Below, piece by piece: positions 4,059-28,299 of a DNA stretch of 33,822 nt. Location: positions 1-33,822 of the IMG/VR virus record IMGVR_UViG_3300045117_000212. The stretch is one strand, 5' to 3'. This stretch comes from a virus. The position numbers were made by a program, and so were the translations under genes. Under the pieces are notes generated by a model. The model worked only from the letters and a program-made list of their open reading frames with translations, was not told the DNA's origin and made no database searches. Position 1 is the stretch's first letter, and every line of letters begins with the position of its first letter.

Positions 4059-5409
4059 TGGACATAACTTTCATAAAAAACGAGCTTCTCCCCCCAGAAC
4101 AGCTCATACAAGACCCAGACAACCCGAACGAAATGAACAACGCCGAATTCGTCGCACTGAAGGCAAACATCGCGCAATACGGCATCCTTGAGCCGGTAGT
4201 CATCGACCAGGACAGCAACATCGTGGACGGCCAGCACCGCTCCATGGCTGCAAAGGAGCTGGGCATCCAAGTCCCCTGCGTGCGCTTCAACATACCCAAC
4301 CCGACAGACAGGCGCATCATCCGCCAAACCCTGAACAAGCTGAGGGGCAAGCACAACCCGCTTAAGGACGCGGAGGAGTTCATAGCCATCCTGAAGGCAA
4401 ATGAGGAAAAGAAGCTCTTCGACCTCACAAGCATCAGGGAAAACGAATTCTACCGGACCATCGCCCAAAAGCAGTCCGAGCAGGAAAAGGATGCCGTCCC
4501 AGAGCCGCCAGAAACGCCAATCACGCAGCCAGGCGACCTTTGGGTAATCGGAGAACACAAAATCATGTGCGGCGACTCCTGCAGCCCAGAGGACGTGGCA
4601 AAGCTTATGGGGGGGGAGAAAAAGCCCATATCGTCATCACCGACCCACCATACGGAGTGGACTACATAGCCCAAATAGAGGGCAGGGAGGGCACAACGAG
4701 CAAATGGAAGCACATCAAGGGGGACGAGCTGAAAGGCAAGGCGCTGCAGGACTTCTGCGCCAAATTCCTCCGCAATATCCAAACCCATACCACCGAAGAT
4801 AGCGCATATTACATTTTTTTTGGCATGAAGACCTTCCACCACTTATTGGCAGCCATGGACGAAACGGAAGTCTATTACGCTTTGCCCCTAATTTGGAGCA
4901 AATCACGCCCGACCATCAGCTGGGCAAAATACCACCCAGACTACGAGATAATGGCTTATGGGGGCAACGGAGCCAAACAGAAGCCCCACAGGGAAAAGGC
5001 AGTGCCAGCATCTGCCGCCCAGGCAAGGAACGACTACCGTCCCGACTACGAGCCAATCGCCTTCAGCGGACATGGCAGCAAACCCAACCAAACGCGGTGG
5101 TTCGCCAAATACGACCAAAACACCACATGGTTCGTCAAACCAGACAACAGTCTCAGCTACGCTCATCCAACTCAAAAGCCCGTGGAGTTGGCCGAACGCG
5201 CCCTGCTGAACAGCTCAAGGGAAGGGGAAGTCTGCCTCGACCTCTTCACAGGCTCAGGATTTACTGCCATAGCCTGCCACAAGCTCAAGCGCATCTTCAG
5301 GGGCATGGAGCTGGAATGTTCTTATGTCGATGTGAGTGTTCAGAGATTAGAACATTACTCTGGTTTGAAAGCGAAATTAATTCGCAACGGCGAGGAAGTG
5401 AAGTTTTAA
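4058..5409 (+). CDS. ParB-like domain fused to DNA methyltransferase, frame broken at a G8 run
   Basis: Residues 1-100 are a ParB/sulfiredoxin-type domain with the G-Q-H-R-S motif (DGQHRSMAAKEL). Then comes a linker and the typical 'GDLWVIGEHKIMCGD' entry into a beta-class methyltransferase: DPPYGVDY (motif IV) and later LDLFTGSGFTA (motif I). Similar fusions are known in phages, often next to packaging genes. The reading frame ends at 4669 in the first frame. The methyltransferase continues in the -1 frame, with the switch at eight consecutive G (4609-4616). The two parts together give about 450 residues, a normal full length. Either the sequence has a G too few, or the locus is phase-variable, or the ribosome or polymerase slips here. 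Confidence 0.8.
4609..4616 (+). other. Homopolymer G8 at the frame switch
   Basis: Eight G directly after the ATG codon of K-L-M. Nine G (or a -1 slip) would join the ParB and methyltransferase frames. G tracts of this kind drive phase variation in many methyltransferases and are also a common site of sequencing error. Confidence 0.75.
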
Positions 5410-5415
5410 AAATCA

Positions 5416-6030
5416 ATGCGACGTAACCATGTCATGATTGAAAAATATTGGATGTGCAATTGGTGTGGCGAGAAAAAGGAAGCCCGACCACCTACAACGA
5501 ATGCGACATGTGAAAAATGCCAACGAGGTAAATTCCGATGTATAATGCGATGCAACTGCCAGAAACTCTTCCATCCCAACTCCAAGAGTCTTCAATTTTG
5601 CAGTCGGAAATGCGCCTACAAATATCGACGAACGCACGAACAAAGGGGAATTCCCAAACCATATCTCTGGCGTGCAAGAATAGGGGCATGTATCAAATGC
5701 GGAAAAGAGTTCCGCGCAGTCAAAGACTTCAAAAACCGAAAACAAAAATATTGCTCAAAGGCATGTTGGGCAACTCGTTCTGGAAGACCTCGCTGGAAAA
5801 GCAAAAGACTGACACTTGCATCGCTTGCGCAAATAAGAAAATGGCGCAAGACGATCTTCAATCGGGACAGAGGAAGATGCGTGCAATGCGGTTCAGACTA
5901 TCGGCTCGAGGCAGATCACATTCTGCCAGTTTCGCAAAGACCCGATTTAATTCTCAACGTAGACAATGGGCGAACACTCTGCCACGAATGCCACAAGCAA
6001 ACCGACACCTACGGAGCGAATCTCAAATAG
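5416..6030 (+). CDS. HNH endonuclease with zinc fingers
   Basis: Two hundred and four residues. The C-terminal HNH nuclease core runs FNRDRGRCVQCG ... LEADHILPVS ... NGRTLCHECH, with the catalytic D-H and zinc C-x2-C pairs. Three or four further C-x2-C pairs lie upstream (C-N-W-C-G, C-E-K-C, C-I-K-C-G, C-S-K-A-C), giving an unusually zinc-rich N-terminus. An HNH gene just before the terminase is common in HK97-like phages, where it aids DNA cutting for packaging; it could also be a homing nuclease. A TATA-like TTTTAAAAA at 5404-5412 overlaps the upstream stop and lies about 23 nt before a second in-frame ATG at 5434, which may be the real, leaderless start. Confidence 0.85.
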   Translation: MRRNHVMIEKYWMCNWCGEKKEARPPTTNATCEKCQRGKFRCIMRCNCQKLFHPNSKSLQFCSRKCAYKYRRTHEQRGIPKPYLWRARIGACIKCGKEFRAVKDFKNRKQKYCSKACWATRSGRPRWKSKRLTLASLAQIRKWRKTIFNRDRGRCVQCGSDYRLEADHILPVSQRPDLILNVDNGRTLCHECHKQTDTYGANLK

Positions 6031-6900: not shown

Positions 6901-8225
6901 TGCAAACCGCTACATGGAGGCCCACCTCGAGGCAAATGGAAGCTTGGGAAATCCTACAAGATGTCACCACAACCGAACTCTTCTACGGCGGTGCGGCGGG
7001 GGGCGGAAAGTCTTACTTGGGCTGCGCATGGCTGCTCGCCTCATGCCTGCGGTATTCCGGCAGCCGTTGGCTTATGGGCCGCGCTGTCCTAAAGCACCTG
7101 AAGGATAGCACACTGCTCACCTTTTTCCAAGTCTGCAAGGAGTGGGGCATCAAGAAAGACGAGCAATACACCTACAACTCAATGGAAGGCGTAATAAAAT
7201 TCTTCAACGGCAGCGAAATCTATCTCAAAGACCTTTTCGCCTACCCCTCCGACCCAGAGTTCGACTCCTTCGGCTCAACTGAATTCACCGGCGCGTTTAT
7301 CGACGAGGGCAGCCAAGTGAGCGAGAAGGCCAAGAACATAATATCTGCCCGCCTGAGATACAAACACAAGGAATTCGAGCTTGTCCCAAAACTCCTCATA
7401 GGCAGCAATCCCTCGAAAAACTTCCTATATTACCAATTTTTCAAGCCGTCAAAGGAAGGAACACTCCCACCTTACCGCAAATTCGTAAGGGCAACCGTCG
7501 GAGACAATCCATATCTTCCCGCACAATACATTGAGCAGCTGCAACGGCTTGACAGGACAAGCCGGGAAAGGCTGTTGTTCGGCAATTTCGATTATGACGA
7601 CGACTCAAGCAAGCTGATGCAATACAATAAAATCACAGACATCTTCACAAACGCGAAAACGGCATCTGAAAAGAAATTCATAAGCTGCGACATTGCCCGA
7701 TTCGGAACGGACAAGACAATCGCGGTAAGGTGGGAAGGGCTGCATATTGCCGAGATAGCCGCGTGGCAGAAGGAAAGCACAAAGGAAACCAGGCTTAGGC
7801 TCGAAGCCATCGCCACAAAACACCAAATCCCAAGGAGCAACATCATCGTGGACGAGGACGGCGTGGGCGGCGGCGTGAAGGACGAAATGAACGGCATACT
7901 CGGATTCGTCAACAACAGCAGTCCGCTTGGGAACACCAACTACGCGAACCTGAAAAGCCAATGCTACTACAAACTTGCCGACTGCGTGAACCTTGGAAAG
8001 ATAAGTTGCGCGGAGCTGGAACCGAGAATAAAGGAGATGCTGATTGAGGACCTGGAGCAAATTGCGCGGAAAGACCCGGACAAGGATAGCAAGCCGGCAA
8101 TAGTTCCGAAAGAGGTGATAAAGGAGAAATTGGGCCGCAGCCCCGACGTGGGCGACGCGATAATGCTAAGAATGCATTTCGAGCTGAACCAAGAGAGTTT
8201 CGGAGTCGCAAGGAAGGGATGGTGA
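6900..8225 (+). CDS. terL: Terminase large subunit
   Basis: Four hundred and forty-one residues, a usual length. ATPase: Walker A G-G-A-A-G-G-G-K-S at about residue 30, Walker B FTGAFIDEG at about residue 130, and a coupling segment GSNPSKNFLY. RNase H-like nuclease: SCDIARFGTD, IIVDEDGVGGGV and DVGDAIML supply the acidic residues. It pumps DNA into the prohead and cuts it. The start is the ATG of the TAATG overlap at 6900; an open extension upstream is just the other frame of the previous gene. Confidence 0.95.
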   Translation: MQTATWRPTSRQMEAWEILQDVTTTELFYGGAAGGGKSYLGCAWLLASCLRYSGSRWLMGRAVLKHLKDSTLLTFFQVCKEWGIKKDEQYTYNSMEGVIKFFNGSEIYLKDLFAYPSDPEFDSFGSTEFTGAFIDEGSQVSEKAKNIISARLRYKHKEFELVPKLLIGSNPSKNFLYYQFFKPSKEGTLPPYRKFVRATVGDNPYLPAQYIEQLQRLDRTSRERLLFGNFDYDDDSSKLMQYNKITDIFTNAKTASEKKFISCDIARFGTDKTIAVRWEGLHIAEIAAWQKESTKETRLRLEAIATKHQIPRSNIIVDEDGVGGGVKDEMNGILGFVNNSSPLGNTNYANLKSQCYYKLADCVNLGKISCAELEPRIKEMLIEDLEQIARKDPDKDSKPAIVPKEVIKEKLGRSPDVGDAIMLRMHFELNQESFGVARKGW

Positions 8226-8665
8226 TGGGCTTTTACAAGAACTTCATAAGGCTCCACGAATTCACGAAAAAGAGCAAATGGAGCTGCGACGGGCAAACAA
8301 AGGTCTTCAACAAATACAACAAACTATCCTTCCCAAGCGACGAGTCAAACAAACTTACTTTTGACGAATGGATTATACAGGCTGCAATCGCCTACAAGCT
8401 GCATGAGAACGGAGTGCCTTTTATCTCAAACAAGCACTTCTACAAGATAGACGTTTTCGGGGACGTTGTCGGGAACGAAACAATAAAGATTCTGAGGCTG
8501 GACAAAATGGAAGCGATACAAAACCGCCCCTCGGAGATTTTCAAGACAATAAACTATGTGAAATACAAGGAGATTCAGGACTTCATGGAGATGCTTTACG
8601 AATATGCGGACGGGATAGTGAAGAACTCCCAGAAGCCGCCAAAGGGAAGCATGAAGGGTTTATGA
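8225..8665 (+). CDS. Hypothetical protein after the large terminase
   Basis: About 146 residues, MGFYKNFIRLHEFTKKSKW.... The start at 8225 overlaps the terminase stop (TGATG); an ATG at 8219 is also possible. Aromatic and charged, soluble, no motifs recognised. Its position between terminase and portal suggests a packaging or head role, but this is inference. The stop overlaps the first copy of the 16-bp late promoter. Confidence 0.6.
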   Translation: MGFYKNFIRLHEFTKKSKWSCDGQTKVFNKYNKLSFPSDESNKLTFDEWIIQAAIAYKLHENGVPFISNKHFYKIDVFGDVVGNETIKILRLDKMEAIQNRPSEIFKTINYVKYKEIQDFMEMLYEYADGIVKNSQKPPKGSMKGL

Positions 8666-8680
8666 GTGTTATTTAAAAAG
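8665..8680 (+). promoter_or_regulatory. Late promoter element, copy 1
   Basis: AGTGTTATTTAAAAAG, starting on the last base of the upstream TGA. TATA-like core; ends 22 nt before the portal ATG at 8703, so the transcript may start at or next to that ATG. A purine-rich AGGAGGAGG lies between. Confidence 0.7.
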
Positions 8681-8702
8681 TCGGCAGGAGGAGGTTGAAG
8701 GT

Positions 8703-10919
8703 ATGAAAATACTCGGCTTTGAGCTATTCGGAAGTGGGGCAAAAACGCCAGTATCGGAAGCGCGTCCATTGAAGGCATACAGTTCCAGCGAGATGGACGT
8801 CGTTGAAATGCAGTTCCCTCGACTTGGGCTTGAATCGCTTTTCAGTTACGTTTATTACTCAGACACCTACCGCGCCATAACGGATGCGCTCGTAAGGGAA
8901 CTCTTCAGGAACGGCGCAGACTTCACTCCAAAGTTCACGGCAAAATGCACAAACAACCTCTGCCAGGCGGAATTTGACTACGAAGTTGAAAACTGCCCAG
9001 AGTGCAACAGCCCGACAAGGGAGCCCGACCACCAGCAACAGTGGATTTTCAAGGAGTTCGTTTCCGAAGCAAACGCAAACGGGCAGCCATTGGAAGCAGT
9101 AATGAAATCAATCGAGATAGACCTTGACGCGGTTGACAACGGCTACCTGCTTGTCCTGAAAGCCTACACGTTTGGCGCACAAGGGGAAATAATCGGCGCA
9201 GACGTAAAAGAACTGCTCCGAGGCGACCCAAGAGTAATGAGGAAGATAATCGACAGGAAAGGGAGACCGGGCTACGATTGGGACTCTGGGAAAAGAATAC
9301 ATGTCTGCCCCATGCACCGCAACAAGGCGCAGGAAGGCCCAAGATGCTCCGACTGCCAGCTAAAACTCTACCCTGCCTACTTCGTGGCTTTCTCCGAAAT
9401 TCCAACGTATTACCTTGCGGGAGAAGTCTGCCACAGGACAAAATACTCGCAGACAATCTACTACGGTTTCCCCCCGATACTCACGCTGCTCCCAAAAATC
9501 CAAATCCTTCTGGCGCAGGACAAATACATGAGGGCATACTACTACGGGAAAAAATCTCCAAAGGGTATTTTGGCATGGATGACAGGCTCGGTGGAATCAG
9601 CGGAAAAGAAATGGTCGGAATTTGTGGACAGGGCAATAGAGGAGCCAAACAACGTGTTCCCTCTTTTCATAAATCCCGGGCAAGCCAACACAAACGGGGA
9701 CGTGGTGAAATTCATCGACCTGATGCGGACGCCACAAGAAATGCAATACATAGACGTGCGGCAGGAATTAATCACGAAGATAGGAGCATTCCACGGGGTA
9801 ATGCCGATTTTCCAAGCAGACCTGTCACAGAGCGCGGGCTTGAATTCAGAAGGATTGCAGGTAACGGTAACAACGAGGGCGGTGGAAACAGGGCAATCCG
9901 TCCATAATTCATTCTTCGCTTTCTTGGGCTATCAGTTGGGGCTCGTCGATTGGGAATACAAGCTCAATCCCCCGGAGGAAAAGGACGAGATGGCGGAACT
10001 GCAACGGGAAGCCCAGAAAATCGCAAATGCACAAGGAATGAAGAACCTCGGATTTGAGGTGAGCCTGGATGACAGCGGCGAGTTCAAATTCACGGAAAAG
10101 CCGGAAGGGATGCAAAACCTTCCTTTTGGACAGATACCCGAGTTTGGCGCAGGAAGCACGGACGAAGCAAGCGGAACTCCCGACAAAGGCAGATTAGACG
10201 GGGAGCCTTTTGACGAGGGACGAATGATGAAGACCGCTGCCGAAAAAAAAAATTCCCAAGACCAGTATGAGGAAGCGATAAAAAGCGCCATTTCAAGATT
10301 CACACGAGGGAACGCAAAGGAGCTAATCACCGCAATCTCAAGAAGCCTCGTGATGAAGTTTGATGCAATCACCGACAAGTATTTCACAAGAATTTACAAG
10401 GAGAAACTAATCGAATTGGAAAACAGGCTTGGAATAGATTTGGGCTTCACGAAAGACGACAGGGACACATTAATGGCGCTAAAGTCCCAAAGGGTTCTTT
10501 CAAGGGCATACCAAGACCTTGCCCAAAACGTGGAAAAAATGGTGAATGAGGCAACAAGCAAATCCGAATCCAAGGAGCAATTAGCCTCATACATCGACGA
10601 GATAAAAACCTCTACAAGCAGCAACGCCGAGCTAATCGCAAGGACAGAAACGGCAAAAATACAGTCGGCGGCTAATCTTACGAATTTCCGCAAAGCATTC
10701 CCCAAGGGCTTCATGGTAAGGCACGCAGGCCCGACTGACGAAAGGACAACAAAGACGTGCAGAAGAATCATGGAGAGGACAAGGAAAGGAGTCACGGAAG
10801 CGGAATACTACGACACCCTGAAAGAGGAATCAGCAAAGGACTTCCCGACATGGACCGTGGATAGGGAAGCCCCTGTAGCCCATATCCAATGCAGACACAG
10901 GCCCGAGGTGCTGGTTTAG
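8703..10919 (+). CDS. Portal protein with zinc-finger insertions and C-terminal MuF domain
   Basis: Seven hundred and thirty-eight residues. The central part (VFPLFINPG ... FIDLMRTPQEMQYI ... FGVMPIFQ-like stretch, TTRAVETGQS) resembles phage portals. Two Cys-rich insertions lie in the N-terminal third: C-T-N-N-L-C ... C-P-E-C and H-V-C-P-M-H ... C-S-D-C, unusual for portals. The C-terminal ~170 residues (LIARTETAKIQSA ... GPTDERTTKTC ... HIQCRHRP) match the Mu gpF/SPP1 gp7 head-morphogenesis domain, so the gene is a portal-MuF fusion. It forms the ring through which DNA enters, with the MuF part inside the prohead. Ends in a TAGTG overlap with the next gene. Confidence 0.85.
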   Translation: MKILGFELFGSGAKTPVSEARPLKAYSSSEMDVVEMQFPRLGLESLFSYVYYSDTYRAITDALVRELFRNGADFTPKFTAKCTNNLCQAEFDYEVENCPECNSPTREPDHQQQWIFKEFVSEANANGQPLEAVMKSIEIDLDAVDNGYLLVLKAYTFGAQGEIIGADVKELLRGDPRVMRKIIDRKGRPGYDWDSGKRIHVCPMHRNKAQEGPRCSDCQLKLYPAYFVAFSEIPTYYLAGEVCHRTKYSQTIYYGFPPILTLLPKIQILLAQDKYMRAYYYGKKSPKGILAWMTGSVESAEKKWSEFVDRAIEEPNNVFPLFINPGQANTNGDVVKFIDLMRTPQEMQYIDVRQELITKIGAFHGVMPIFQADLSQSAGLNSEGLQVTVTTRAVETGQSVHNSFFAFLGYQLGLVDWEYKLNPPEEKDEMAELQREAQKIANAQGMKNLGFEVSLDDSGEFKFTEKPEGMQNLPFGQIPEFGAGSTDEASGTPDKGRLDGEPFDEGRMMKTAAEKKNSQDQYEEAIKSAISRFTRGNAKELITAISRSLVMKFDAITDKYFTRIYKEKLIELENRLGIDLGFTKDDRDTLMALKSQRVLSRAYQDLAQNVEKMVNEATSKSESKEQLASYIDEIKTSTSSNAELIARTETAKIQSAANLTNFRKAFPKGFMVRHAGPTDERTTKTCRRIMERTRKGVTEAEYYDTLKEESAKDFPTWTVDREAPVAHIQCRHRPEVLV

Positions 10920-12396: not shown

Positions 12397-13596
12397 ATGC
12401 AATGGAACTATGGAAGCCAAGAAAACCTTGCTCTTTACGAGAGGCTCATCCAAGAGCAATACAAAGGAGTGCCAGCCTCTCCGTCTGACGTAACGTCAGT
12501 GAACAAAGCCGATGCGCCTATACTGTCCTCAACGACAGGCTTTTTCAATCCGGTTTATGGGGCGTCGGTAATGCAGCAACTCGCCCACGACAGCGTCCTT
12601 TTCGGGATGCTGCCAAAATACCCCTACAAGAAAAGGGGATTCAGGGCTGAAACCACGAGATTCGTGACAAGCGGAGTGGGTGTTGCGGAAAACGCAGCAG
12701 TGCCTGACAGCGTGAAAAACGCAATTGCAGCGGTTGATGTTCCAATAAAGGAGCACGCAATCACTGTTGAGATTTCAGAAAGACAGAGGCTCCTGATGGA
12801 AGCGGGGGACGACACAGCATATACCGACTACGCGGGAGTGATGGAAAGCGCAAAGAGGAGTTTCTCCTATGCTTACGACGCTGACATAAATACCGACGTA
12901 ACAACAGTCGCCTCCAACAACTCGGAGTCAATCGACAGGGTTGTTTCCTCATATGCAGAGGTTACTAACTGCGCTGATGTGAATGCAAACGACGCTGACA
13001 TTTACTCACTGGACAGGGATGCAGCTGCTTCATGGACGGATGCATATGTGAATCATGGCTCCAACGTAACAAGGGTTCTTTCAGACACCATCGTTAGGGC
13101 TGTTATGAGCAATACCGTTTCCAACGGGGCAGACCCCAGGACCCAAGTCTGGTATACAGGCGCAGACACTTACGAGGCACTTGTCGGATTGTATGGCACA
13201 CAGAACAGATACGCTATGCAATTCACAGGCCCCGGGACAAGTGCAGTGTCCGGAGAGCCCGCAAAAGGAATCGCTTACGGGATGGAGATGGCGACCCTTT
13301 ACGGAAGACCCTTCTTCGTTGCACCAACAGGAAAAGTGGTTGCAAACGGAGCAGCAGGAGCAGGAACGGCAATATCAAACCTCTACCTGCTTGACTTGGG
13401 AACCGACCCAATCTATGGCGAACCAATATTGGGCATAAAGACGCTCAGGGCTCCAATCCTTGCAAAGACAGGACTGATGGACGGTTACCCTGCGCACGCA
13501 AAGCTCGGCAACGAAACCATCATCTACGCTGCAATGGAGCTTGAATGCAAGAACTTTAAGCGACAGGGCAAAGCGAGAGACCTTGCAGCACCCTAA
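12397..13596 (+). CDS. Major capsid protein, HK97-type
   Basis: Three hundred and ninety-nine residues. AGGTGAT, a perfect SD, lies 4 nt before the ATG. The sequence has the expected N-arm, then an E-loop-like stretch (PYKKRGFRAETTRFVTSGVG), a long helix region (VEISERQRLLMEAGDDTAY) and C-terminal TDPIYGEPILGIKTLRAP, in keeping with HK97-fold capsid proteins. Neighbours (protease before, small head proteins after) support this. There is no signal peptide and only about three N-X-S/T sequons, unlike the fibre proteins. A hairpin follows the stop. Confidence 0.8.
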   Translation: MQWNYGSQENLALYERLIQEQYKGVPASPSDVTSVNKADAPILSSTTGFFNPVYGASVMQQLAHDSVLFGMLPKYPYKKRGFRAETTRFVTSGVGVAENAAVPDSVKNAIAAVDVPIKEHAITVEISERQRLLMEAGDDTAYTDYAGVMESAKRSFSYAYDADINTDVTTVASNNSESIDRVVSSYAEVTNCADVNANDADIYSLDRDAAASWTDAYVNHGSNVTRVLSDTIVRAVMSNTVSNGADPRTQVWYTGADTYEALVGLYGTQNRYAMQFTGPGTSAVSGEPAKGIAYGMEMATLYGRPFFVAPTGKVVANGAAGAGTAISNLYLLDLGTDPIYGEPILGIKTLRAPILAKTGLMDGYPAHAKLGNETIIYAAMELECKNFKRQGKARDLAAP

Positions 13597-14250: not shown

Positions 14251-15354
14251 ATGATTAAGAGGCTGTTCGCCGGTCTTTTGCTACTGATGGCATTTGCATT
14301 TGGGGCAAGTTTGAGCTCCAACTTCTATCAGAGTGGCTTTGACGTAAGGCAGGCGACCATGACAAAAGAATACTATGGCAGCGAAACCGTCGGCTACTCG
14401 TCGGTTTTTGGCTCCATAAGATACCTCCAGGTCAAAAACTCAGGTGGAGAGGACATGTCGTATTCCATTCAGGATGACGCGGGAACAAGCCTCTATTCGG
14501 CGACGGTAGCCCCTGCCGCAACCCACACGAACAGGACTCTTCCCAACTACACCAATTACGGCGTGTTGAACCTCGTCTGTGCAAACAACTTCACAGGAGG
14601 CGGCAGCCTTCCAACAGGTCTTGTCTCATTCTGGAAACTTGACGAAGGGACAGGAAATACAACCGCCGACGTGAACGCTGCAAACACGCTTGAACTGCCA
14701 TCGGCACAAGGGGAAGGCGACAACACATGGACAACTTCGGGGAGATTCTACAATGCCACAACCCTCGACGGCGTGAATGACACGCTGCGACTGAACGACA
14801 GCGCAACAGTAAATGGAACAGCCTCAACGAGCTTCGCATGGGCGTTCTGGCTTTATCCAAACGCAGCACTTGGAACAAACAAGAGCGCGTATCTCTACCA
14901 CAAGGGAGTCAAGAACGGCAACGTAACGCCCGTTCCAATCAGCACAGGCGTAAATTCCACGGCTCTCCAGGCAATCAACAACACTGCCATAAAGCTGTTC
15001 GTCAATACCAACGTTACGCAAAGGACAGTCACTTACAACTCCGCCGACTTCAGCACTGCGGCATGGAGCCACTATTCAGTTACATTCAACGGCACCGACC
15101 TGAAGCTCTACATCAACGGGGCACTTGCAAGCAATGACACGCCAACCACTACCCAGAATCTCAATTGGACAAGCCAGAACTGGTTATTTGGGGATGGGTT
15201 CGACACAGGCAACAACAGCGTGGCATACTTCGCCAACTGGAACTATGACAGCATCATGTATTTCAACACGAGCCTCACAGCGGCGCAAGTGTCCTACCTT
15301 TACAACCAGACAAAGAAGGTGAATCTGCAAACAACAGTAATTGCCGTGAGGTGA
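14251..15354 (+). CDS. Secreted LamG/concanavalin-like protein, sequon-rich
   Basis: Three hundred and sixty-seven residues. Signal peptide at 1-18 (MIKRLFAGLLLLMAFAFG). From about residue 125 there is a LamG-like module: GLVSFWKLDEGTGN ... TLDGVNDTLRL ... FAWAFWLYP ... HYSVTFNGTDLKLYINGALAS ... YDSIMYFNTSLTAAQVSYLY. By my count about 18 N-X-S/T sequons. LamG folds bind sugars or protein surfaces, so attachment is a natural role. However, a signal peptide would export the protein, which is odd for a virion part assembled in the cytoplasm. GAGGTG precedes the ATG at 14251. Confidence 0.8.
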   Translation: MIKRLFAGLLLLMAFAFGASLSSNFYQSGFDVRQATMTKEYYGSETVGYSSVFGSIRYLQVKNSGGEDMSYSIQDDAGTSLYSATVAPAATHTNRTLPNYTNYGVLNLVCANNFTGGGSLPTGLVSFWKLDEGTGNTTADVNAANTLELPSAQGEGDNTWTTSGRFYNATTLDGVNDTLRLNDSATVNGTASTSFAWAFWLYPNAALGTNKSAYLYHKGVKNGNVTPVPISTGVNSTALQAINNTAIKLFVNTNVTQRTVTYNSADFSTAAWSHYSVTFNGTDLKLYINGALASNDTPTTTQNLNWTSQNWLFGDGFDTGNNSVAYFANWNYDSIMYFNTSLTAAQVSYLYNQTKKVNLQTTVIAVR

Positions 15355-15370
15355 GTTTTGGTGATTCAAA

Positions 15371-15958
15371 ATGCCAGCTGCACCACAATCCATTTCACGG
15401 AAGGACCTTGCTACCAAGAATGACCCCAACTCCATAAAGCAAGGAATCGCTGGCTATGGAGTATGTTCGGGACTTGCAGTTTCCGCAGGGACAGGGCTCC
15501 AGGTCTCCATCGCTTCCGGAAATGCCCTGTTTGCTTCAACACTCGTGATAAAAAGCGGAGCAACTACCTTGAACCTGACGGCTGCCGATTCAACCAACCC
15601 CCGAAAGGACATAATAGTTCTTGCTTCAGACGGGACAATAAGCGCAGTCGATGGAACGGCAGCAGCAATCTATCTTCCATCCGACACGAAGTTTCAGTTG
15701 CTCTCTCCCTATCCCGAGGCCATACCCTCTGGCAAGATAATACTGGCGGAGGTCTATGTGGCGGCAGGGGCAACGAGCCTTGCGGCTTCTGACATAAACG
15801 ACAAGAGGGTTTTGCTTTCAGGCAATTACAAAATCTCGACTGTTTTCTCGGCAGACGCAAATGGCATTACTTTTAAAGCAAGCGATGGAACAACTACCAT
15901 AGCCGTTCTTGATGACAGCGGAAATTGGGGAATAAAGGGAATGCAATACACATTATGA
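15371..15958 (+). CDS. Fibre/baseplate-type protein
   Basis: One hundred and ninety-five residues. The pattern NPRKDIIVLASDGTISAVDG ... IPSGKIILAEVYVAAGATSL ... DINDKR is characteristic of phage tail-fibre or baseplate proteins. No signal peptide, unlike its two flanking genes. GGTGAT lies before the ATG. The end overlaps a possible upstream start of the next gene (ATGA at 15955). Likely a fibre base or collar. Confidence 0.7.
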   Translation: MPAAPQSISRKDLATKNDPNSIKQGIAGYGVCSGLAVSAGTGLQVSIASGNALFASTLVIKSGATTLNLTAADSTNPRKDIIVLASDGTISAVDGTAAAIYLPSDTKFQLLSPYPEAIPSGKIILAEVYVAAGATSLAASDINDKRVLLSGNYKISTVFSADANGITFKASDGTTTIAVLDDSGNWGIKGMQYTL

Positions 15959-15966
15959 GGGAAACC

Positions 15967-18900
15967 ATGAGGCAATTACTTATCCTCCTGTTTCTGATGG
16001 GAAGTGTTTTTGCCGCAATAGGAGACCCTTCCAAGTTTGGAAATAGCACAACAGTAACCTGCTACATAGGCGGAACGCAAGGCATTCTCAACTGCACTGG
16101 TCAGCTCATCGGAAAGAACCTAACCTTGATGACTGTTTGCAGTTCAGGGCAATTCCTCACCCTCAACACGACTACCAATCTCACCTATTGCGCGTCGCCG
16201 CCAGCATACCAGAACGGTTCAAGCAACCTCACAATAACTCAGGTCTTCGCAAACTTCTCGGCAACATCCCCCTGGCTAATCTACAACGGGGCAGGCAACT
16301 ACGCTTGGAACGACACTATGGGAAATCTCACATATTTGCTAAACTCTGTCTTCACGAGCGAAAACTCCTCAATCTGGTCAGCAATCAATGCGCGACTTCT
16401 CACCTCCACATTCAACGCGGAAAACGCCTCAATCTGGAGCGCGATAAACGCAAGGCTTCTGACATCCACTTTCACAGCGGAAAACGCATCCATATGGAGC
16501 TCAATAAACTCCCTCATCACTTCAAACGCAAGCACGAACGACAGAATTACGTCGGTCAATTCATCAGTCCAGGGGATTTTCACCGACTATGCGAACAAGA
16601 GCAAGAGCGAAACGATAATTGGCAACTGGCTCTTCACCCCGTCGAGCAACGTCACCTTCAGCAGCGGCAGGGTTCTCTTCTACTCGCCTGTCTTCTTCTA
16701 CAACGACACCACCTACTCCAACACGAATGCGATGAGGGTGAATTCCAGCATAACCGTGACGGACATCGGCAATGTTTCAGTCGTGAATATCAGCGATGAT
16801 GGAACAGGGAAGGGTAGGATTTGGAGCAACGGCTACGCAATCTTCCAGCAGACCGTCCAGGCGAGCGAGTTCAGCGGGGCGTTAAACTGGACTTTCCTGC
16901 AAAATTATCCTTCGGGATGCTCAACAGGATATGCCGTCCAAGCAGTAGGAGATACTCTCGCATGCGTCCTAATGCCCACAGGGAATGTCACAGGCTCGTT
17001 TTCAGCCAACCAAGTGCCATACGCCACCAACTCCACAAACTTAGCAAGCTCGCCGAACTTGGTTTTCAATGAAACACAGCTATCCATCAACGGAACACTA
17101 AGAATCAACACCAACAACATCATAGACATGCGCACAGGCTCGGCTACGAGCGTGGATAGGCTTGACATACTTGCCACGCAGGGAAACAGAGGGTCTTCAA
17201 TCCAACTGATTCCATCGGGAACAGGCACATTTTCAAAGTTCGCCACCGCGAACCAGAACTCCTCCTCAAACTTCGGAAGCATCATCATAGCCGCAGACGG
17301 AAACACAGGCTGGATTAATCCGCAGCAGGTCGGAACACCGACAACGAACCTGACAATACTCAGAATTGGCGGCGTTCCACCGACTGCGGGAGGCACGAAC
17401 TGGAGCGAAATACACCTCTTCAGCAGCAACGTGTCATTCCGCACAAACGAGTTGAGAATCGCTGACATTTCCAATACGTTCATAGGCTCATTTGCCGCAG
17501 TGTTGAATAACACAACCGTTCCCACAGCCAGCAGCACATTCGGCACATCAGTTCGCGGGCTTCCAAACGGGCATCTTTTCCTTGATGTTTTCAACAATGA
17601 CATCAATGATGCGGTGATGGTTCGTTTCAACAACTCAACAGCCATCAGCATCGGCGCAGTTTTCAGACCATCTTCCATAGACTTCTATGGAAACCTTAGA
17701 CCAGACGGGGCAGACTGCGGAGACGGGCAAACGATATATCGCATCACCGATGGGAATTGGGGGTGCGTTACGCCTATTGGTGGCGGTGCAGCAACAAAAC
17801 AGGTAGGGTATTGGCATACCGACACAATTTTAGCCGGTAGCGGAACATTCTACTACGACTTCGATAATTTCCTTCTTGGTGTGGGCGGAGAGATGGCAAG
17901 CGACCCGTCGGCAACACTCGATGTGAGGCAACAGGCAATCGACGGTGGAGCAGCCACCATCACTCCCGCATTCAAAGTCACAGGAGGCAGCCACACCCAG
18001 ATGGCTTCCGAAAACCACGACGCATTCTTCAATTTCAGCAGGACACTGATAATGCCAGGCGCATTTTCAAACCAACGGCAGTTCTACATTACTGCACCCG
18101 AATACAGGGATGGAGATGGATTAAATATCCAATCCGCAGCGACGGTAGCAATATCAGGCGCACCCCGACTTCAAAGCGGCGTGTTGGAGCATTCCGCAGC
18201 ACTTGACATAGAAGGCGGAAGCGTAACGACAGGCGGAACCCCAACCAACGCATACGGGCTTCGCGTTGCCGCACCGACTGGCGCAACGAACAACTATGCG
18301 GCACAGTTCAACGGGTTGCTTGACGCCACAAACGGTTTCAAGCTTCAAGGCGCACTGACTCTACCCGCCAATTCAGTCACAGATGCCTTCATTAATTCAG
18401 TTAATTGGACAAAAGTCTCAAACGCCCCTTGGATAACGAACAACCCTTACAACCTCACCATCAATTCAAGCCTCTCCATGCCCAATACATCGGGCAGGAT
18501 AGTTCTTTCAGGCAGACTATACGCAGACCAAGTAGGGACTCTTACTGACGACCAAATGTTGAGAAGAGGCGAATACCACAGACCAATGGTGAATTACACC
18601 GGTGCAAATGCGTCGCTTGCCATAACGGGGATGGCCTTTGAGCCGTATTTCAACGCAACAAACATAACCTTTCCAACGGTCATCGGTTTTGACATGCAGC
18701 CAAGAATACAGGGCAATACGACCACATACACAAATATGCGCCTTATAATGCCTATTAATTCAGGCACAGGAAATCCAAACACAACAACAACGACCAATAT
18801 TGAAGTCAGGAAGCCAACGCTTCTCGGCAACATCACCAATGTCATATTTAGCCTGGGCGGAGTGGCTTCTGTTTCGCCGTCGGGTAACTATTCCGTATAT

Positions 18901-19110
18901 GACGACTCTGGTTGGAACTGGTATCTGAAAAACAGCAACCTGACTGTCAATGGAACAATCAACGCAAGCTCATTCCTCATGCCGAGCGTAAATTCGCTTT
19001 CCTGTTCCGCAACAATCAAAGGCTCTCTCGGCTACAACTTCACGAGCAACAGGCCGTGCTACTGCAACTCAACGTCATGGCTGAACATGACGGGAGGGAC
19101 AGTGTGTTAA
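15967..19110 (+). CDS. Large secreted fibre-like protein with dense N-sequons
   Basis: One thousand and forty-seven residues from ATG 15967 (GAGGGA 5 nt upstream; an ATG at 15955 adds four residues). Signal peptide 1-15 (MRQLLILLFLMGSVFA). Residues 129-188 are three 20-residue repeats (ENASIWSAINARLLTSTF type), probably a helical stalk. The rest is beta-rich with fibre-like motifs (DPSATLDVRQQ, AYGLRVAAPTGATNNYAA). The end has a Cys-rich tail (C-S-A-T ... C-Y-C-N-S-T ... C). I count about 50 N-X-S/T sequons. A tail fibre or adhesin in outline; the signal peptide and sequons imply passage across the membrane and N-glycosylation. Confidence 0.75.
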   Translation: MRQLLILLFLMGSVFAAIGDPSKFGNSTTVTCYIGGTQGILNCTGQLIGKNLTLMTVCSSGQFLTLNTTTNLTYCASPPAYQNGSSNLTITQVFANFSATSPWLIYNGAGNYAWNDTMGNLTYLLNSVFTSENSSIWSAINARLLTSTFNAENASIWSAINARLLTSTFTAENASIWSSINSLITSNASTNDRITSVNSSVQGIFTDYANKSKSETIIGNWLFTPSSNVTFSSGRVLFYSPVFFYNDTTYSNTNAMRVNSSITVTDIGNVSVVNISDDGTGKGRIWSNGYAIFQQTVQASEFSGALNWTFLQNYPSGCSTGYAVQAVGDTLACVLMPTGNVTGSFSANQVPYATNSTNLASSPNLVFNETQLSINGTLRINTNNIIDMRTGSATSVDRLDILATQGNRGSSIQLIPSGTGTFSKFATANQNSSSNFGSIIIAADGNTGWINPQQVGTPTTNLTILRIGGVPPTAGGTNWSEIHLFSSNVSFRTNELRIADISNTFIGSFAAVLNNTTVPTASSTFGTSVRGLPNGHLFLDVFNNDINDAVMVRFNNSTAISIGAVFRPSSIDFYGNLRPDGADCGDGQTIYRITDGNWGCVTPIGGGAATKQVGYWHTDTILAGSGTFYYDFDNFLLGVGGEMASDPSATLDVRQQAIDGGAATITPAFKVTGGSHTQMASENHDAFFNFSRTLIMPGAFSNQRQFYITAPEYRDGDGLNIQSAATVAISGAPRLQSGVLEHSAALDIEGGSVTTGGTPTNAYGLRVAAPTGATNNYAAQFNGLLDATNGFKLQGALTLPANSVTDAFINSVNWTKVSNAPWITNNPYNLTINSSLSMPNTSGRIVLSGRLYADQVGTLTDDQMLRRGEYHRPMVNYTGANASLAITGMAFEPYFNATNITFPTVIGFDMQPRIQGNTTTYTNMRLIMPINSGTGNPNTTTTTNIEVRKPTLLGNITNVIFSLGGVASVSPSGNYSVYDDSGWNWYLKNSNLTVNGTINASSFLMPSVNSLSCSATIKGSLGYNFTSNRPCYCNSTSWLNMTGGTVC
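16351..16530 (+). repeat. Three 60-bp coding repeats in the fibre gene
   Basis: Copies at 16351, 16411 and 16471, each encoding a 20-residue unit like F-x-x-E-N-A-S-I-W-S-A-I-N. The third has diverged at its end. Confidence 0.8.
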
Positions 19111-19197
19111 AGATGTTCTGCCCCCGAACAGGATGTGTGAAGCAACCACGAACCAGACGAGATGGGACGGAGTAAGGGGATATTAGGAGGATTAGCG

Positions 19198-19656
19198 ATG
19201 GTCGAAAACAGCACAGCCAAAGTCGAGGCAGCCCCTCCAGCAAAAGGAATCGCTACAGAAGGAACTACATCAACCCAGCTTCCGCAATGGGATTTTTTTC
19301 AATGGGACTACTGTATGTATGAAGGTCTGGTAACGTCAGGTGCACCTCCTGATGGGGAAGCAGTTGTTGAAACAACCAAACAGGCAAAAGGTTCAGTAGA
19401 AGCACCGAAAAGGTCAAAATCATTTGTGGAAGCCACAAAACAGGCAACGGGGTCGGTAGAATCTGCCATCAGGTCAAAATCATTTGTGGAAACAACACGG
19501 TCAGCAAAAGGTTCAGTAGAAGCACCGAAAAGGTCAAAATCATTTGTGGAATCTGCCCAAATGGCTAAAGGCACAGTAGAAGCAGTCAAACGTTCAAAAT
19601 CATTTGTGGAAGCCACAAAACAGGCAAGGGCATACATTGAGCCAACGAAGGTTTAG
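19198..19656 (+). CDS. Decapeptide-repeat protein
   Basis: One hundred and fifty-two residues; AGGAGG 7 nt before the ATG. The N-terminal 60 contain 'TSTQLPQWDFFQWDY' and no known motif. Residues 60-150 are about nine copies of a 10-residue unit, consensus V-E-A-x-K-x-x-K-x-x, alternating GS/SF endings (VEAPKRSKSF, VEATKQAKGS). The regular V/E spacing suggests stacked beta turns or a charged fibre. No signal peptide. Not assigned to a family; its place between fibre and connector genes suggests a virion or surface role. The stop carries promoter copy 3. Confidence 0.7.
   Translation: MVENSTAKVEAAPPAKGIATEGTTSTQLPQWDFFQWDYCMYEGLVTSGAPPDGEAVVETTKQAKGSVEAPKRSKSFVEATKQATGSVESAIRSKSFVETTRSAKGSVEAPKRSKSFVESAQMAKGTVEAVKRSKSFVEATKQARAYIEPTKV
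19381..19620 (+). repeat. Four 60-bp tandem coding repeats
   Basis: Exact 60-bp period starting at 19381, 19441, 19501 and 19561; each has TCAAAATCATTTGTGGAA at the same place. Each encodes two decapeptide units. It is not CRISPR: repeats are contiguous and coding. Confidence 0.85.
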
Positions 19657-19699: not shown

Positions 19700-20623
19700 G
19701 TGATTTTTATCGGAGTCTGGTTTGCTTGGCCCGCGCCAACAACTGAAAGCAGCTGGAACACGAGTCGAATATACAGGGCAACCTCACAATCAGGTTCTTT
19801 CAGCCTTTTGGTATCACAGACATTGTCCCTCTCTGCACCGGACACGACTTACTACGATGAGTCTGGGACAGGCACTCACTGGTATAAGTATTCATTCTAC
19901 AACTCGTCAAGCACAGTAGAAAGCCCATTATCTGACGCAATTCCCGCCACAAGAACAACAGTCACCTATTGCCAGCCGCAGGACGTTGCCGAACTCCTGC
20001 AATTCAGGAACAGCCAAGAACTCCATATGTTCGACTCACAAACAAAGCCAAACATTTTTGAAGTCCTTACCTACATCCGAAGGGCAGAAGACTACATCGA
20101 CAACAAGACAGGACACGCTTGGAGGGCAAGATATTCCGGAACCCCTGGCAACGACGCAACCGCTGCCGAGTGGGAACACCTTGACCAGCACATACCCTAC
20201 AAGAAGGGGCAAGGCTATCCTCTTTACATGAAACATCGCATGGTAAGAACACTTGCCGCTGGTTCAGGAGACGCCGTTTCTGTCTGGAATGGCTCCTCAT
20301 ACACCGATTACCTCGCAAGCAAAACAGAAGGAAGAAACAATGACTTCTGGGTGGATTACGAGAGAGGGATTCTTTACCTTATTGATGCTTCATTCGTGAG
20401 CCTTGACGATGCGGTGAGAATAAAATACCGATACGGAGATTCCACCGTTCCTGCCGACATAGAACACGCAGCGACACTTTTGGCAGCCATCCATGTCCTT
20501 GAAGGGGATGAAAGGAGCACCGTATTCCCGGAAGGCTCGTTCCGTTCCGCCATAGGGGAAAAAATCTATGACCTGAAAAAACAGGCGGAAGAAATAATCA
20601 GAGCACACACTGAGACGCAGTAG
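19700..20623 (+). CDS. Connector protein with Fn3-like N-terminus
   Basis: Three hundred and seven residues from GTG 19700; the in-frame ATT at 19694, 9 nt after GAGGT and 23 nt after the promoter, is an alternative. Residues 1-95 look like a fibronectin-III-like fold (FAWPAPTTESSW ... SRIYRATSQSGSFSLL ... SPLSDAIP). From about 100 on (CQPQDVAELLQF ... ILTYIRRAEDYIDNKTG-like) it resembles head-tail adaptor proteins that seal the portal. The fusion is unusual. Position before the tail-completion gene supports it. Confidence 0.65.
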   Translation: MIFIGVWFAWPAPTTESSWNTSRIYRATSQSGSFSLLVSQTLSLSAPDTTYYDESGTGTHWYKYSFYNSSSTVESPLSDAIPATRTTVTYCQPQDVAELLQFRNSQELHMFDSQTKPNIFEVLTYIRRAEDYIDNKTGHAWRARYSGTPGNDATAAEWEHLDQHIPYKKGQGYPLYMKHRMVRTLAAGSGDAVSVWNGSSYTDYLASKTEGRNNDFWVDYERGILYLIDASFVSLDDAVRIKYRYGDSTVPADIEHAATLLAAIHVLEGDERSTVFPEGSFRSAIGEKIYDLKKQAEEIIRAHTETQ

Positions 20624-24356: not shown

Positions 24357-24734
24357 ATGACTACAACCTTGAATGCCATTTCGCTTGAAGAAGTGCAGAC
24401 GGAGCACGTTTCAATAGAGACGGGGCTTGTTCCGCTTCCGCCGCCTGACGACGGAACTTCAACAACAGCGGACACCATAATTGTTTCGCTCATCGCTCCC
24501 ATGAGGCAGTTTCAGATAACAGGGATAAAAGTCGATACAATCGCCAACCTCAGGACATTTGCCAGCGGGATAATTTCGGCGGCACAGAACCAAGAAACAG
24601 CCCACACCTACCATTCGGACTTTTTCAACGCAAATTACAACGTGAAAATCAGCGGCTACACCTTTGATTATGTTGCAGGGGAGCCGGCGACCCTTGAATA
24701 CCAATTGACCTTGATTGAGGGCAGTTCCATATGA
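24357..24734 (+). CDS. Small tail protein
   Basis: One hundred and twenty-five residues, beta-rich, no motifs recognised: 'TEHVSIETGLVPLPPPDDGTSTTAD ... VSLIAPMRQFQITGIKVDTIANLRTFASGI'. Lies between tape measure and hub; the stop overlaps the hub start (ATGA). A distal tail or baseplate adaptor is the best guess from order. Confidence 0.5.
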   Translation: MTTTLNAISLEEVQTEHVSIETGLVPLPPPDDGTSTTADTIIVSLIAPMRQFQITGIKVDTIANLRTFASGIISAAQNQETAHTYHSDFFNANYNVKISGYTFDYVAGEPATLEYQLTLIEGSSI

Positions 24735-26227
24735 CGAAATACATAACAGTGAAATTGAACAGCAACACGGTTACCACTTATGTCCGAAACTACAAGATAG
24801 ACAAAAGGATAAGCTCGGATGCGCTCATAGACGAGTGCAACATAGAATTTTTCAAATCCTGTTCCCCCGTTCCCGCCGTGGGGCAAACGATAGAAATCTA
24901 CTCAGGTTATTCGGCAAACCCGACAGTCAGGAAGTTTTACGGGATTGTGAGAGACGTCCAAACGTCAAAGGAGATTTACAAGGCGAAATGCCTCTCCCGA
25001 TTGGTCCTTGCCGCTGATGCCCTTGTAAATACCGTCTATAATTCCAACGGCTCAACCGCAGGTGTCGTTTCGGCGATAGTGGATGACCTTTTTGAGACAT
25101 ACGCAGGGCTCACCTGTTCGGTGGTAACAACGCCAGACGTAATCTCCAAGTTCATTTGCAGGAACACCGACGTTCTTGAAAGGTGCGTCCTATTGGCGCA
25201 TCAGGTCGATTATGACATACACTATGACCATGATGCCGACGTTGTCTATTTCAGACCAAGGGAGTATTCCACCAATTCGGGAACAATCTACATTGGAACG
25301 GCAAGCAACTCCGTTTCCCAGGCAGTCAAGTGGAAGGACATCGGAATACAGGACTTGTTCAACAAGCTCACAATCTACGGCGCAACGGTCTATGTTTCGG
25401 ACACAAAGAGCTTCACGGCTTCAGCGGCACAAACAACAACAACCCTCAGCCATATCCCTGACGTGGTGAAAGTTACCAAGAACGGAACAGAGCAGGTAGG
25501 CGGTTTATCAGGCAGCACCACATCTTACGATTACCAAGTGGACAGGGAGAACAAGAAAATAACATGGGCAGTCGCTTTTGCAGGAGGGGAAAGCGTCGTG
25601 GTAACCTACTACTACAATGTCCCCGTTCCTGTCCAAATGCAGGACGCCACCTCGATAGCGGCTTACGGCACGATACACAAGATATTCACTTTCACTGACC
25701 TTACCACAGTCGATGATGCGATACAGCGGGGGCAGCGGCTTCTGAACAACTACAAAAACCCATTCAAGTTGTCAGAGCTATACCTGTTGCCAGACTCCGT
25801 AAATACCCTGAACCCGCAAGTGGGGCAGAGAATAAGGGTCACGGACAATCTCGTGTCGATAAACGACTACTTTGTGATAAAGCAAGCGACAGAAGAATAT
25901 CCAGAGAAAGGGATGCTGCTGACTATAAGCGACAAGGAGTGGAAGTGGCAATCGACGGAAATATCAACACAGCTTCGCATTAAAAGGCTTGAAGAACAGC
26001 TGAACGAAGGCGACCAAGTTGTTTCACAGGTAATAACAGGCGGAGCAGATGCCGCCGCAGCAAGAACAACGTTGGAGGCATTGGCAGCCAGAGTAAATGA
26101 CAGTTTCATATTGGGACATTGGCTAAACGGACAATTGGCAAGGGGAATTATCTTAGATGACTTTGAGTCAAGTCCCTTATCAAATTGGACAGGAACATCC
26201 TGCACCCTTTCGGAGCAAACCGCATGA
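24731..26227 (+). CDS. Tail hub/baseplate protein ending in a truncated jelly-roll module
   Basis: Four hundred and ninety-eight residues. The front resembles tail hub (gp27-like) proteins: 'VGQTIEIYSGY ... RKFYGIVRDVQTSK ... LVLAADALV'. A coiled-coil-like stretch follows at about 415-445. The last 25 residues (ILDDFESSPLSNWTGTSC...) look like the beginning of a carbohydrate-binding jelly roll, but the frame stops after 'LSEQTA'. The rest of such a module appears in the same frame from 26711. It would form the tail tip. The stop overlaps the next start. Confidence 0.7.
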   Translation: MTKYITVKLNSNTVTTYVRNYKIDKRISSDALIDECNIEFFKSCSPVPAVGQTIEIYSGYSANPTVRKFYGIVRDVQTSKEIYKAKCLSRLVLAADALVNTVYNSNGSTAGVVSAIVDDLFETYAGLTCSVVTTPDVISKFICRNTDVLERCVLLAHQVDYDIHYDHDADVVYFRPREYSTNSGTIYIGTASNSVSQAVKWKDIGIQDLFNKLTIYGATVYVSDTKSFTASAAQTTTTLSHIPDVVKVTKNGTEQVGGLSGSTTSYDYQVDRENKKITWAVAFAGGESVVVTYYYNVPVPVQMQDATSIAAYGTIHKIFTFTDLTTVDDAIQRGQRLLNNYKNPFKLSELYLLPDSVNTLNPQVGQRIRVTDNLVSINDYFVIKQATEEYPEKGMLLTISDKEWKWQSTEISTQLRIKRLEEQLNEGDQVVSQVITGGADAAAARTTLEALAARVNDSFILGHWLNGQLARGIILDDFESSPLSNWTGTSCTLSEQTA

Positions 26228-26709
26228 GCAGCATAAAATACGTCGTAATGTTTTCCATTCTTTTGGCTACTTTTGGCTGTTTAGGATTCCTATTTCCACA
26301 AGACGGCAAGCAGAAATATCCGTGGGAAGGACTCTCTACGGGCGCTGGCGGCAATCTGTCAGTTGTATTTGGAAGCGGCATCAGTTCTGTTTATTTCAAC
26401 GCAAGCACCCATGTTTCAAGGAACGTTTCAGCGACCAATCAGACAAGCTCGATAGCGTTGTTCAATGTCACGAATATCGGAGGCAACAACACATCAATAA
26501 ACATGAGCATCAATACGAGCATTACGGGATTCACGGTCAGGTGCGCCCAACACTACAACCAGACGGGCCTTACGAACCTGACCATATCTAACCGGACAAT
26601 CGCAAACATCAGCACAAACGCAACGGTCAGGATTTGGTGTTGGGCTGACTTTTACTACGCAAACAAAAGCGCAGCAAGGAACTTCAATATCAGCGTGACA
26701 GAGGGATAA
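26224..26709 (+). CDS. Exported, very sequon-dense small protein
   Basis: One hundred and sixty-one residues. N-terminal signal or anchor segment (MSSIKYVVMFSILLATFGCLGF). The rest has about sixteen N-X-S/T sequons in about 130 residues, by my count, and is likely heavily glycosylated outside the cell. A start inside the hub gene's final codons (ATGA) and an inserted position in the middle of a split jelly-roll suggest it came in as an extra (moron-like) gene. May mask the host surface or exclude other viruses; unproven. Confidence 0.65.
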   Translation: MSSIKYVVMFSILLATFGCLGFLFPQDGKQKYPWEGLSTGAGGNLSVVFGSGISSVYFNASTHVSRNVSATNQTSSIALFNVTNIGGNNTSINMSINTSITGFTVRCAQHYNQTGLTNLTISNRTIANISTNATVRIWCWADFYYANKSAARNFNISVTEG

Positions 26710-26710
26710 A

Positions 26711-27223
26711 ATGCCGGGATTTGGGGGAACATTCGACATCAACGACTCGCTCGTGCTCGTGGGCAGCAAGAGCCTCAAAGCGGTGGCAAGCGCAAGCACA
26801 TTCAGCATCGCCACAACTCAGAGCTTCGGAGACCTCTCGACATACACAGGAGTCGGCTCAGGTGCGCCTACAAGCGGAACTGTGGGCATTTGGGTCTATT
26901 GCGCTTCGGGGGAAATTACCTCCGTAACGCTCCGCATGGGCAGCAGCTCAATCAACTACTCGGAAGTGGCGGGAGTGAAGACATATACCAACGGGACAGA
27001 CACCCAAGACGGCTGGAACTATTTTGTTTTCCGCCTGACAAATGCGACAACAACGGGAACGCCCGTCTGGACAGCAGTAGCATACGCAAGAATCCAAGCG
27101 GTAAGCACAACCACACCAACAGTTATATTTGATTACTTCGCAATAGGGACAGGAAACGTAATCGGATTGAATGGAATGGGGGACAGACGAACAGACTACC
27201 AACTGTATAGCGTTACATATTGA
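26711..27223 (+). CDS. Carbohydrate-binding jelly-roll-like module, likely 3' half of a split module
   Basis: One hundred and seventy residues; GAGGG before the ATG. 'INDSLVLVGSKSLKAVA ... TTQSFGDLSTYTGV ... GTVGIWVYCASGEITSVTLRMG ... WNYFVFRL ... ARIQAV ... VIFDYFAIG' is a typical carbohydrate-binding jelly-roll, but without the usual 'DDFE...W' first strand. That strand is at the end of the hub gene in the same reading frame, 484 nt upstream. Probable receptor-binding tail part. Confidence 0.65.
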   Translation: MPGFGGTFDINDSLVLVGSKSLKAVASASTFSIATTQSFGDLSTYTGVGSGAPTSGTVGIWVYCASGEITSVTLRMGSSSINYSEVAGVKTYTNGTDTQDGWNYFVFRLTNATTTGTPVWTAVAYARIQAVSTTTPTVIFDYFAIGTGNVIGLNGMGDRRTDYQLYSVTY

Positions 27224-27232
27224 GGTGAAACC

Positions 27233-28291
27233 ATGCCGGGCACAGCAGAGGGAGCATATCCAAAGTCAAACGGCGACATTTTGTATGCAAGTGAGACTAA
27301 TAATGTGAAAATGCACATCGCAGGTCAGCGATATGTAGGGGACGGTAGTGATGGGGCACTGAGCGTGACAAGCGGGACAACGACAATATCGAGCAGTGTA
27401 AAAAGATACACCTCCATGTCTATCAGCGCAGGTGCGACGCTCGCGTTTGGAACAGTAGGAAAATTCATAATTTACTGTCAAGGCGATTTTACCCTAAATG
27501 GAACACTTTCTTTGGGTAATAAGGTAGGCACCTCTCCAACAACATTCGATTCAAGTGCAGGAAGCACGGGGGATGGGAACCCCGGAGGAGCAGCAGGAGT
27601 GGTGAACGCCCCATTGTTCGGTTCTTTTTCTGTGGTGAAACTTGATTGGATAGGCTCTGAGGGTTCTAATGGAGGCGTTGGCAAAACTAATTCTTACGGC
27701 AATGGCGGAGGCGGCGGCGGAGGCGGTAGTCTTCTTGTGGCAGGTGGAGCCGGTGGCAATGGTGGAGTGTCTGGGGGCGCAACCGCTGGTGCGGGTGGTG
27801 CAGCGGGCGTCGGAAAATGCGCTGTCATTATTTTTGTGGGAGGAACAATCACATTCGGTGCGTCATCATCCATCGTTGGCACTGGCAACTCGGGTTCTGT
27901 CGGAGCTGGCGGTAGTTTTCCGACCAACAGTAGTGGCTCAGGAGGCGGAGGCGGTGGAGCAAGCGGATTCGTTATGATTTTTGGAAATAAGGAAGCAACC
28001 CTCACAACAGGGGCAACAGTTACTTTAGTGGGAGGAGCAGGTGGTGCAGGTGGAGCCGGAGCTGGGGGGACAAATGGAGGCGGCGGAGGAGGCGGTGGCG
28101 GAGGCTCGGGGGGAGTTTTTGTCTTATTGTGCAACGGAACCCTCTCCAACAGTGCAACTATATCAGTTTCGGGCGGTGCAGGGGGGGCTGGAGGAGCCGG
28201 AGGCAACGCTGGAGGAGCAGCAGGAGCTAATGGCTCCAATGGCAATACTGGTCTATCATTTGTCCTAACCAACTCATACGCGATTTCATAG
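27233..28291 (+). CDS. Glycine-rich adhesin/tail-tip fibre
   Basis: Three hundred and fifty-two residues. The N-terminal 100 are beta-rich (a beta-helix-like run 'TMSISAGATLAFGTVGKFIIYCQGDFTLNGTL'). Then four to five glycine runs (GNGGGGGGGGS, GSGGGGGGAS, GGAGGAGGAGAGG, and others) alternate with short beta segments (KCAVIIFVGG, GFVMIFGN, GGVFVLLCN). This resembles the polyglycine-sandwich adhesins of T-even-like phages (gp38). Host recognition is likely. GAGGTGAA precedes the ATG. Opposite-strand Pro-rich ORFs here are shadows. Confidence 0.7.
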   Translation: MPGTAEGAYPKSNGDILYASETNNVKMHIAGQRYVGDGSDGALSVTSGTTTISSSVKRYTSMSISAGATLAFGTVGKFIIYCQGDFTLNGTLSLGNKVGTSPTTFDSSAGSTGDGNPGGAAGVVNAPLFGSFSVVKLDWIGSEGSNGGVGKTNSYGNGGGGGGGGSLLVAGGAGGNGGVSGGATAGAGGAAGVGKCAVIIFVGGTITFGASSSIVGTGNSGSVGAGGSFPTNSSGSGGGGGGASGFVMIFGNKEATLTTGATVTLVGGAGGAGGAGAGGTNGGGGGGGGGGSGGVFVLLCNGTLSNSATISVSGGAGGAGGAGGNAGGAAGANGSNGNTGLSFVLTNSYAIS

Positions 28292-28299
28292 GTGGTCTT

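Follow-up and report, generated by a model that had tools for sequence, protein, structure and literature searches.

The window, that is, the whole 33,822-nucleotide stretch that was analysed, is a 33.8-kb virus record known solely from metagenome sequence. The HK97-type capsid protein, portal, large terminase and tape measure families are all present, as in archaeal Caudoviricetes, together with a connector family. Among 50,697 phage records, the portal and major capsid proteins had matches, at about 26% identity, to tailed viruses of haloarchaea and methanogens only, which points to a tailed virus whose host is probably archaeal. The gene order is capsid protein, two small genes, LamG-domain protein, 195-aa protein, fibre-like protein, repeat protein and connector (Table 1). 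The repeat protein (19162-19656) consists mostly of RSKSFVEATKQAKGSVEAPK-type repeats, and a long open frame lies on the opposite strand at 19308-19637. Genes at 52-1596, 4540-5409, 5416-6030 and 32503-32961 encode two N6/N4 DNA methylases and two endonucleases, one of the HNH and one of the LAGLIDADG type.

Table 1. Genes of the window that bear on the fibre locus.
Feature	Coordinates	Strand	Remarks
Major capsid protein	12397..13596	+	phrog_24667, E 2.5e-20
LamG-domain protein	14251..15354	+	367 aa; Pfam Laminin_G_3; 19 sequons
195-aa protein, possible virion anchor	15371..15958	+	between LamG and fibre genes
Fibre-like protein	15967..19110	+	1047 aa; 53 sequons
Head-tail connector-type protein	19700..20623	+	phrog_17057, E 1.2e-34; phrog_442 head-tail adaptor, E 5e-4
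Third exported-looking protein	26224..26709	+	161 aa; 16 sequons; signal-peptide-like N-terminus

The N-X-S/T sequons of the 44 main ORFs were compared with 1000 shuffles, the reversed motif S/T-x-N served as a control of identical local composition, and signal peptides were called by a simple home-made score of hydropathy, charge and cleavage. The LamG protein exceeded its expectation of 8.3 sequons (z 4.5; 19 forward against 8 reversed motifs, p 0.026), as did the fibre with 23.6 expected (z 7.2; 53 against 31, p 0.011). Both N-termini, MIKRLFAGLLLLMAFAFGASLSS in the LamG protein and MRQLLILLFLMGSVFAAIGD in the fibre, are signal-peptide-like by our score, so that the earlier note, which had estimated about 18 and about 50 sequons behind signal peptides, holds on both proteins. 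It had also described the capsid as poor in sequons, in agreement with 3 against 2.9 expected, and the protein between the two genes as devoid of a signal peptide, which is the case for the 195-aa protein (1 sequon). A third such gene, at 26224-26709, was missing from it; here about 4 (4.2) sequons were expected (z about 6), and forward motifs outnumbered reversed ones by 16 to 4 (p 0.006). Besides these three, only one further plus-strand ORF of the window, encoding a small membrane-type protein at 3566-3844 (2 sequons, 0.3 expected), has a signal-peptide-like N-terminus. In the shuffles, no sequon excess was found in the capsid, the connector, the tape measure, the S/T-rich tail proteins or the 195-aa protein. 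Chance or composition as the source of the sequons was rejected on the basis of the shuffles and the reversed motif. The LamG, fibre and third proteins thus combine a predicted signal peptide with a sequon excess, the two sequence features sought in an exported N-glycoprotein.

The LamG assignment rests on a Laminin_G_3 match (PF13385; E 7.6e-11, 42.8 bits against a curated gathering cut-off of 27.6), and the gene is preceded by a ribosome-binding-like GAGGTG; the confidence of the predicted structure was too low for use. The third gene gave no family match. Its ORF spans 26185-26709, and the probable start at 26224 overlaps the stop of the tail gene 24731-26227. This tail gene and the one at 26711-27223 flank the third gene, are in the same frame and resemble halves of one tail domain, so that the third gene looks like an insertion in the region 26150-27223; phmmer with the joined halves supported neither an insertion nor its absence.

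A search with the window fibre retrieved a near-copy of the window (L002) and one relative (L004), whose fibre gene is truncated and also begins with a signal peptide. Searches from the L004 gene led to 15 non-window viral contigs after removal of duplicates. On all 15, a fibre-like gene encodes a signal-peptide-like N-terminus, and a sequon excess (z 2.5 to 11.7) is present in 14 of these fibres; in the relatives, such an excess is mostly confined to signal-peptide proteins. Across the 16 contigs the two features co-occur (Fisher 6e-13, a value inflated because the contigs were chosen through such fibres). An AxA-like cleavage site is present in most fibres, and a conserved DFTPQGN segment begins immediately after this site. 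Many share this mature N-terminus; others have only internal segments in common. Residues 223-357 of the window fibre match the signal-peptide fibre of L019 (phmmer, E 1.6e-10), and a further segment is shared with L013 4181. Since full-length homology does not link all of them, the fibres are best described, from their sequences, as a shared architecture with partial homology, not as one proven family. Dual localisation through an internal start codon was considered and set aside: such a codon is not conserved, and L013 has none in its first 50 codons.

The proteins with sequon excess are rich in N, S and T, and one may ask whether these are ordinary fibres assembled in the cytoplasm, whose N-termini are not working signal peptides and whose sequons reflect an Asn/Ser/Thr-rich composition. 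The L026 fibre (7895-10441), which keeps its signal peptide with 13 sequons against 12.5 expected, speaks for this explanation. However, the excess is larger than composition explains, and forward motifs outnumber reversed ones by 549 to 278 in the 15 related fibres pooled (p 1e-21). No excess is seen in the other S/T-rich tail proteins of the window, and the signal-peptide-like start is kept on every related contig; we consider ordinary fibres very improbable. The host of the L026 virus perhaps lacks N-glycosylation of this type.

Eight of the 15 related contigs end within the fibre gene (L004/L019, L010, L011, L020, L021, L022, L023 and L025), and in the near-copy of the window the sequence breaks off at fibre residue 640; assembly may fail at the fibre gene owing to repeats or to variation within the population. 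A diversity-generating reverse transcriptase acting on the fibre was rejected as RVT_1 was not found in the 16 records, a weak absence given that many are fragments.

Another explanation is that host surface-protein genes were acquired recently as moron-like cargo and play no fixed part in the virus cycle. LamG domains are frequent in the surface proteins of cells, a weak PDB match was obtained to an S-layer domain-containing protein (E 0.002), and the third gene seems to be inserted between two tail genes. This explanation nevertheless appears unlikely to us, as similar genes occupy similar places on 15 other virus contigs, and two scans of genome contigs found neither a provirus nor a cellular relative of the fibre. 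By the same 15 contigs, a one-off host gene picked up by the window virus is unlikely. PCNA was present in two fibre-bearing relatives, which supports archaeal hosts for those two. MCM was not found in the 16 virus records, and could not mark archaeal hosts in any case because the control was positive in 14 of 14 genomes, bacteria included.

The fibre gene has a recurrent position. In 11 of the 15 relatives it lies just after the head-tail connector, within the structural block: in eight (L011, L013, L019, L021, L022, L025, L026 and L027) it starts at most about 45 bases from the stop of a homologous connector or overlaps it, and in L010, L020 and L023 one small gene separates it from a connector-like gene, that of L010 being judged from its sequence alone. 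The L019 connector matches the phrog_442 head-tail adaptor. The window departs from this order, its fibre gene preceding the connector. Downstream, the fibre is followed in L013, L026 and L017 by homologous, apparently membrane-anchored proteins in which a membrane segment at the N-terminus is followed by a long remainder. L013, L015 and L016 have a Cys-rich membrane protein in common, and in L012 and L016 a LamG membrane-type protein comes after the fibre, an arrangement that recalls the LamG-fibre pair in the window.

According to these results, we propose, with a probability of about 0.5, that a fibre cassette is part of the virion operon and that its products would be exported, N-glycosylated and held at the surface of the infected cell. 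The proteins would be made together with the virion proteins late in infection, would exit through the host Sec pathway and would be N-glycosylated by the host AglB. The glycosylated fibres would then stay attached to the outside of the infected cell, in some relatives through ectodomain or LamG partners anchored in the membrane, and their most likely role there would be that of adhesins or of fibres that mask receptors, in the late phase and at release. Export and N-glycosylation outside the cell, as the earlier note had suggested, are well supported at the sequence level by the co-occurrence of signal peptide and directional sequon excess, the AxA-like sites and the DFTPQGN segment, which is conserved and begins where cleavage is predicted. 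A search of the 16 records, of which several are fragments, found no STT3; a virus-encoded oligosaccharyltransferase was therefore rejected, and glycosylation would fall to the host. Glycosyltransferase family 2 genes occur in the records of L015, L017 and L023.

Part of the sequence support for the cassette is its tight spacing with the structural genes in the window. The earlier note had offered host-surface adhesins, decoys or parts attached to the virion after export, and the data agree with more than one of these. The membrane-anchored partners of the relatives favour the infected-cell surface as the destination, and the separate tail-end genes of the window (27233-29199), which lack signal peptides, also count for surface display. 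Against it stand the location in the structural block after the connector, a place in which one would expect a virion part; the lack of a membrane-anchored partner beside the fibre of the window; and the L026 fibre, which keeps its signal peptide although its sequons are not in excess.

The recurrent slot after the connector leaves room for a joining of the fibre to the virion, and together with the truncated anchor-like protein upstream of the window fibre it speaks for later joining. The fibre could be split, with a short anchor made in the cytoplasm (the 195-aa protein) on the virion and an exported, glycosylated distal fibre that would attach to this anchor extracellularly, either during lysis or afterwards. 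The 195-aa protein matches phrog_9534 (E 1.5e-12) and phrog_3398 (E 6.7e-10), and aligns only to the N-terminal part of longer phage head, baseplate or fibre proteins (profiles of 303-916 positions); by tblastn it matched HVTV-1 gp136, HRTV-4 and a Blf4 structural protein. Its homologues that can be read whole in viral contigs are single proteins of 293-364 aa, and in L048 one comes directly after a gene placed like a connector. Moreover, the window fibre gene directly follows that of the 195-aa protein, whose stop is overlapped by another possible fibre start at 15955, and in L015, L016 and L017 the fibre likewise comes after short proteins that lack a signal peptide. On the other hand, no anchor of this type was seen beside the fibre in the connector-fibre group (L011, L013, L019 and others), and the membrane-anchored partners of the relatives lack an obvious place in a lipid-free virion. 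We regard a split fibre as possible, at odds well below even. If true, the fibre would be a genuine virion part matured in two compartments. The fuller version, in which the anchor would be placed on the virion in the cytoplasm and the distal part would be exported, N-glycosylated, probably disulphide-bonded and joined only at virion exit, is slightly less probable.

Known virion surface proteins help in judging surface display. The turret head of HFTV1, the tower of HSTV-1 and the baseplate protein gp136 of HVTV-1 have neither signal peptide nor sequon excess, which counts for display of the window fibres on the cell. The HFTV1 turrets (gp30/gp31) and the HSTV-1 tower are likewise surface projections of archaeal tailed viruses, and the HFTV1 turret genes sit after the connector and tail-completion genes, like the fibre slot. 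The turret head, however, has a polysaccharide deacetylase-like domain and not a LamG domain. The window LamG and fibre proteins matched no HFTV1 protein by phmmer against all fetched ORFs; without relationship to gp30/gp31 and with signal-peptide-like starts, they do not belong with these turrets. HFTV1 uses head and tail for host binding, and its turrets were proposed to bind host glycans (PMC12494034).

Glycosylation outside the cytoplasm is described for the pleolipovirus spikes (HRPV-1, HFPV-1) and for VP4 of SSV1 and SSV19 (PMC10384203). These virions contain membrane and exit by budding, whereas the window virus is tailed, with portal, terminase and tape measure. Archaeal head-tailed viruses leave by lysis; HRTV-DL1 virions gave faint bands on glycoprotein staining, and deletion of aglB had no effect on the HRTV-DL1 life cycle (PMC10384203). 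In nine annotated archaeal tailed virus records, some of them partial, none of 348 ORFs passed both cut-offs, an absence that is not absolute since the signal-peptide cut-off is strict: the LamG, fibre and third genes of the window fall just under it themselves. An annotated signal-peptide gene of Halorubrum virus Hardycor2 (MN901520) has 6 sequons against 6.3 expected. Gene 00023 of the Methanosarcinales virus vir515 (L035, BK063672; 13296-13718) combines a signal peptide, just under the cut-off, with 7 sequons against 1.8 expected, and is in this respect like the window fibre. This gene (phrog_24894) lies directly after the major head protein of an archaeal tailed virus, and its relatives in four viral contigs (L043-L046) keep both features. 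Its 140-aa product is, however, unrelated in sequence to the window fibre and not fibre-like, and the confidence of its predicted structure was too low.

PblA and PblB of Streptococcus phage SM1 are virion-type gene products that act as host-cell adhesins, although no classical signal peptide takes them to the surface; to our knowledge, no sequon feature has been noted in them. Their host is bacterial, unlike the probably archaeal host of the window virus, and the window LamG protein and the fibres tested, that of the window included, gave no sign of a sequence relationship to PblA/PblB, with no match in the 50,697 phage records, a set that may or may not include SM1. Adhesion by PblB is treated in PMC4508584. 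In the open-licence literature we found no account of fibre proteins being exported in tailed viruses of archaea, which is weak evidence of novelty.

Altogether, sequon-rich fibres that look exported recur in uncultured, probably archaeal tailed viruses, in the window and in at least 15 relatives. The assembly of tailed virions is normally assumed to take place entirely in the cytoplasm. Exported, sequon-rich fibres encoded in a virion operon would either break this rule or show a late remodelling of the infected cell surface, and the signal peptide together with the directional sequon excess provides a simple sequence signature to seek in other viruses.
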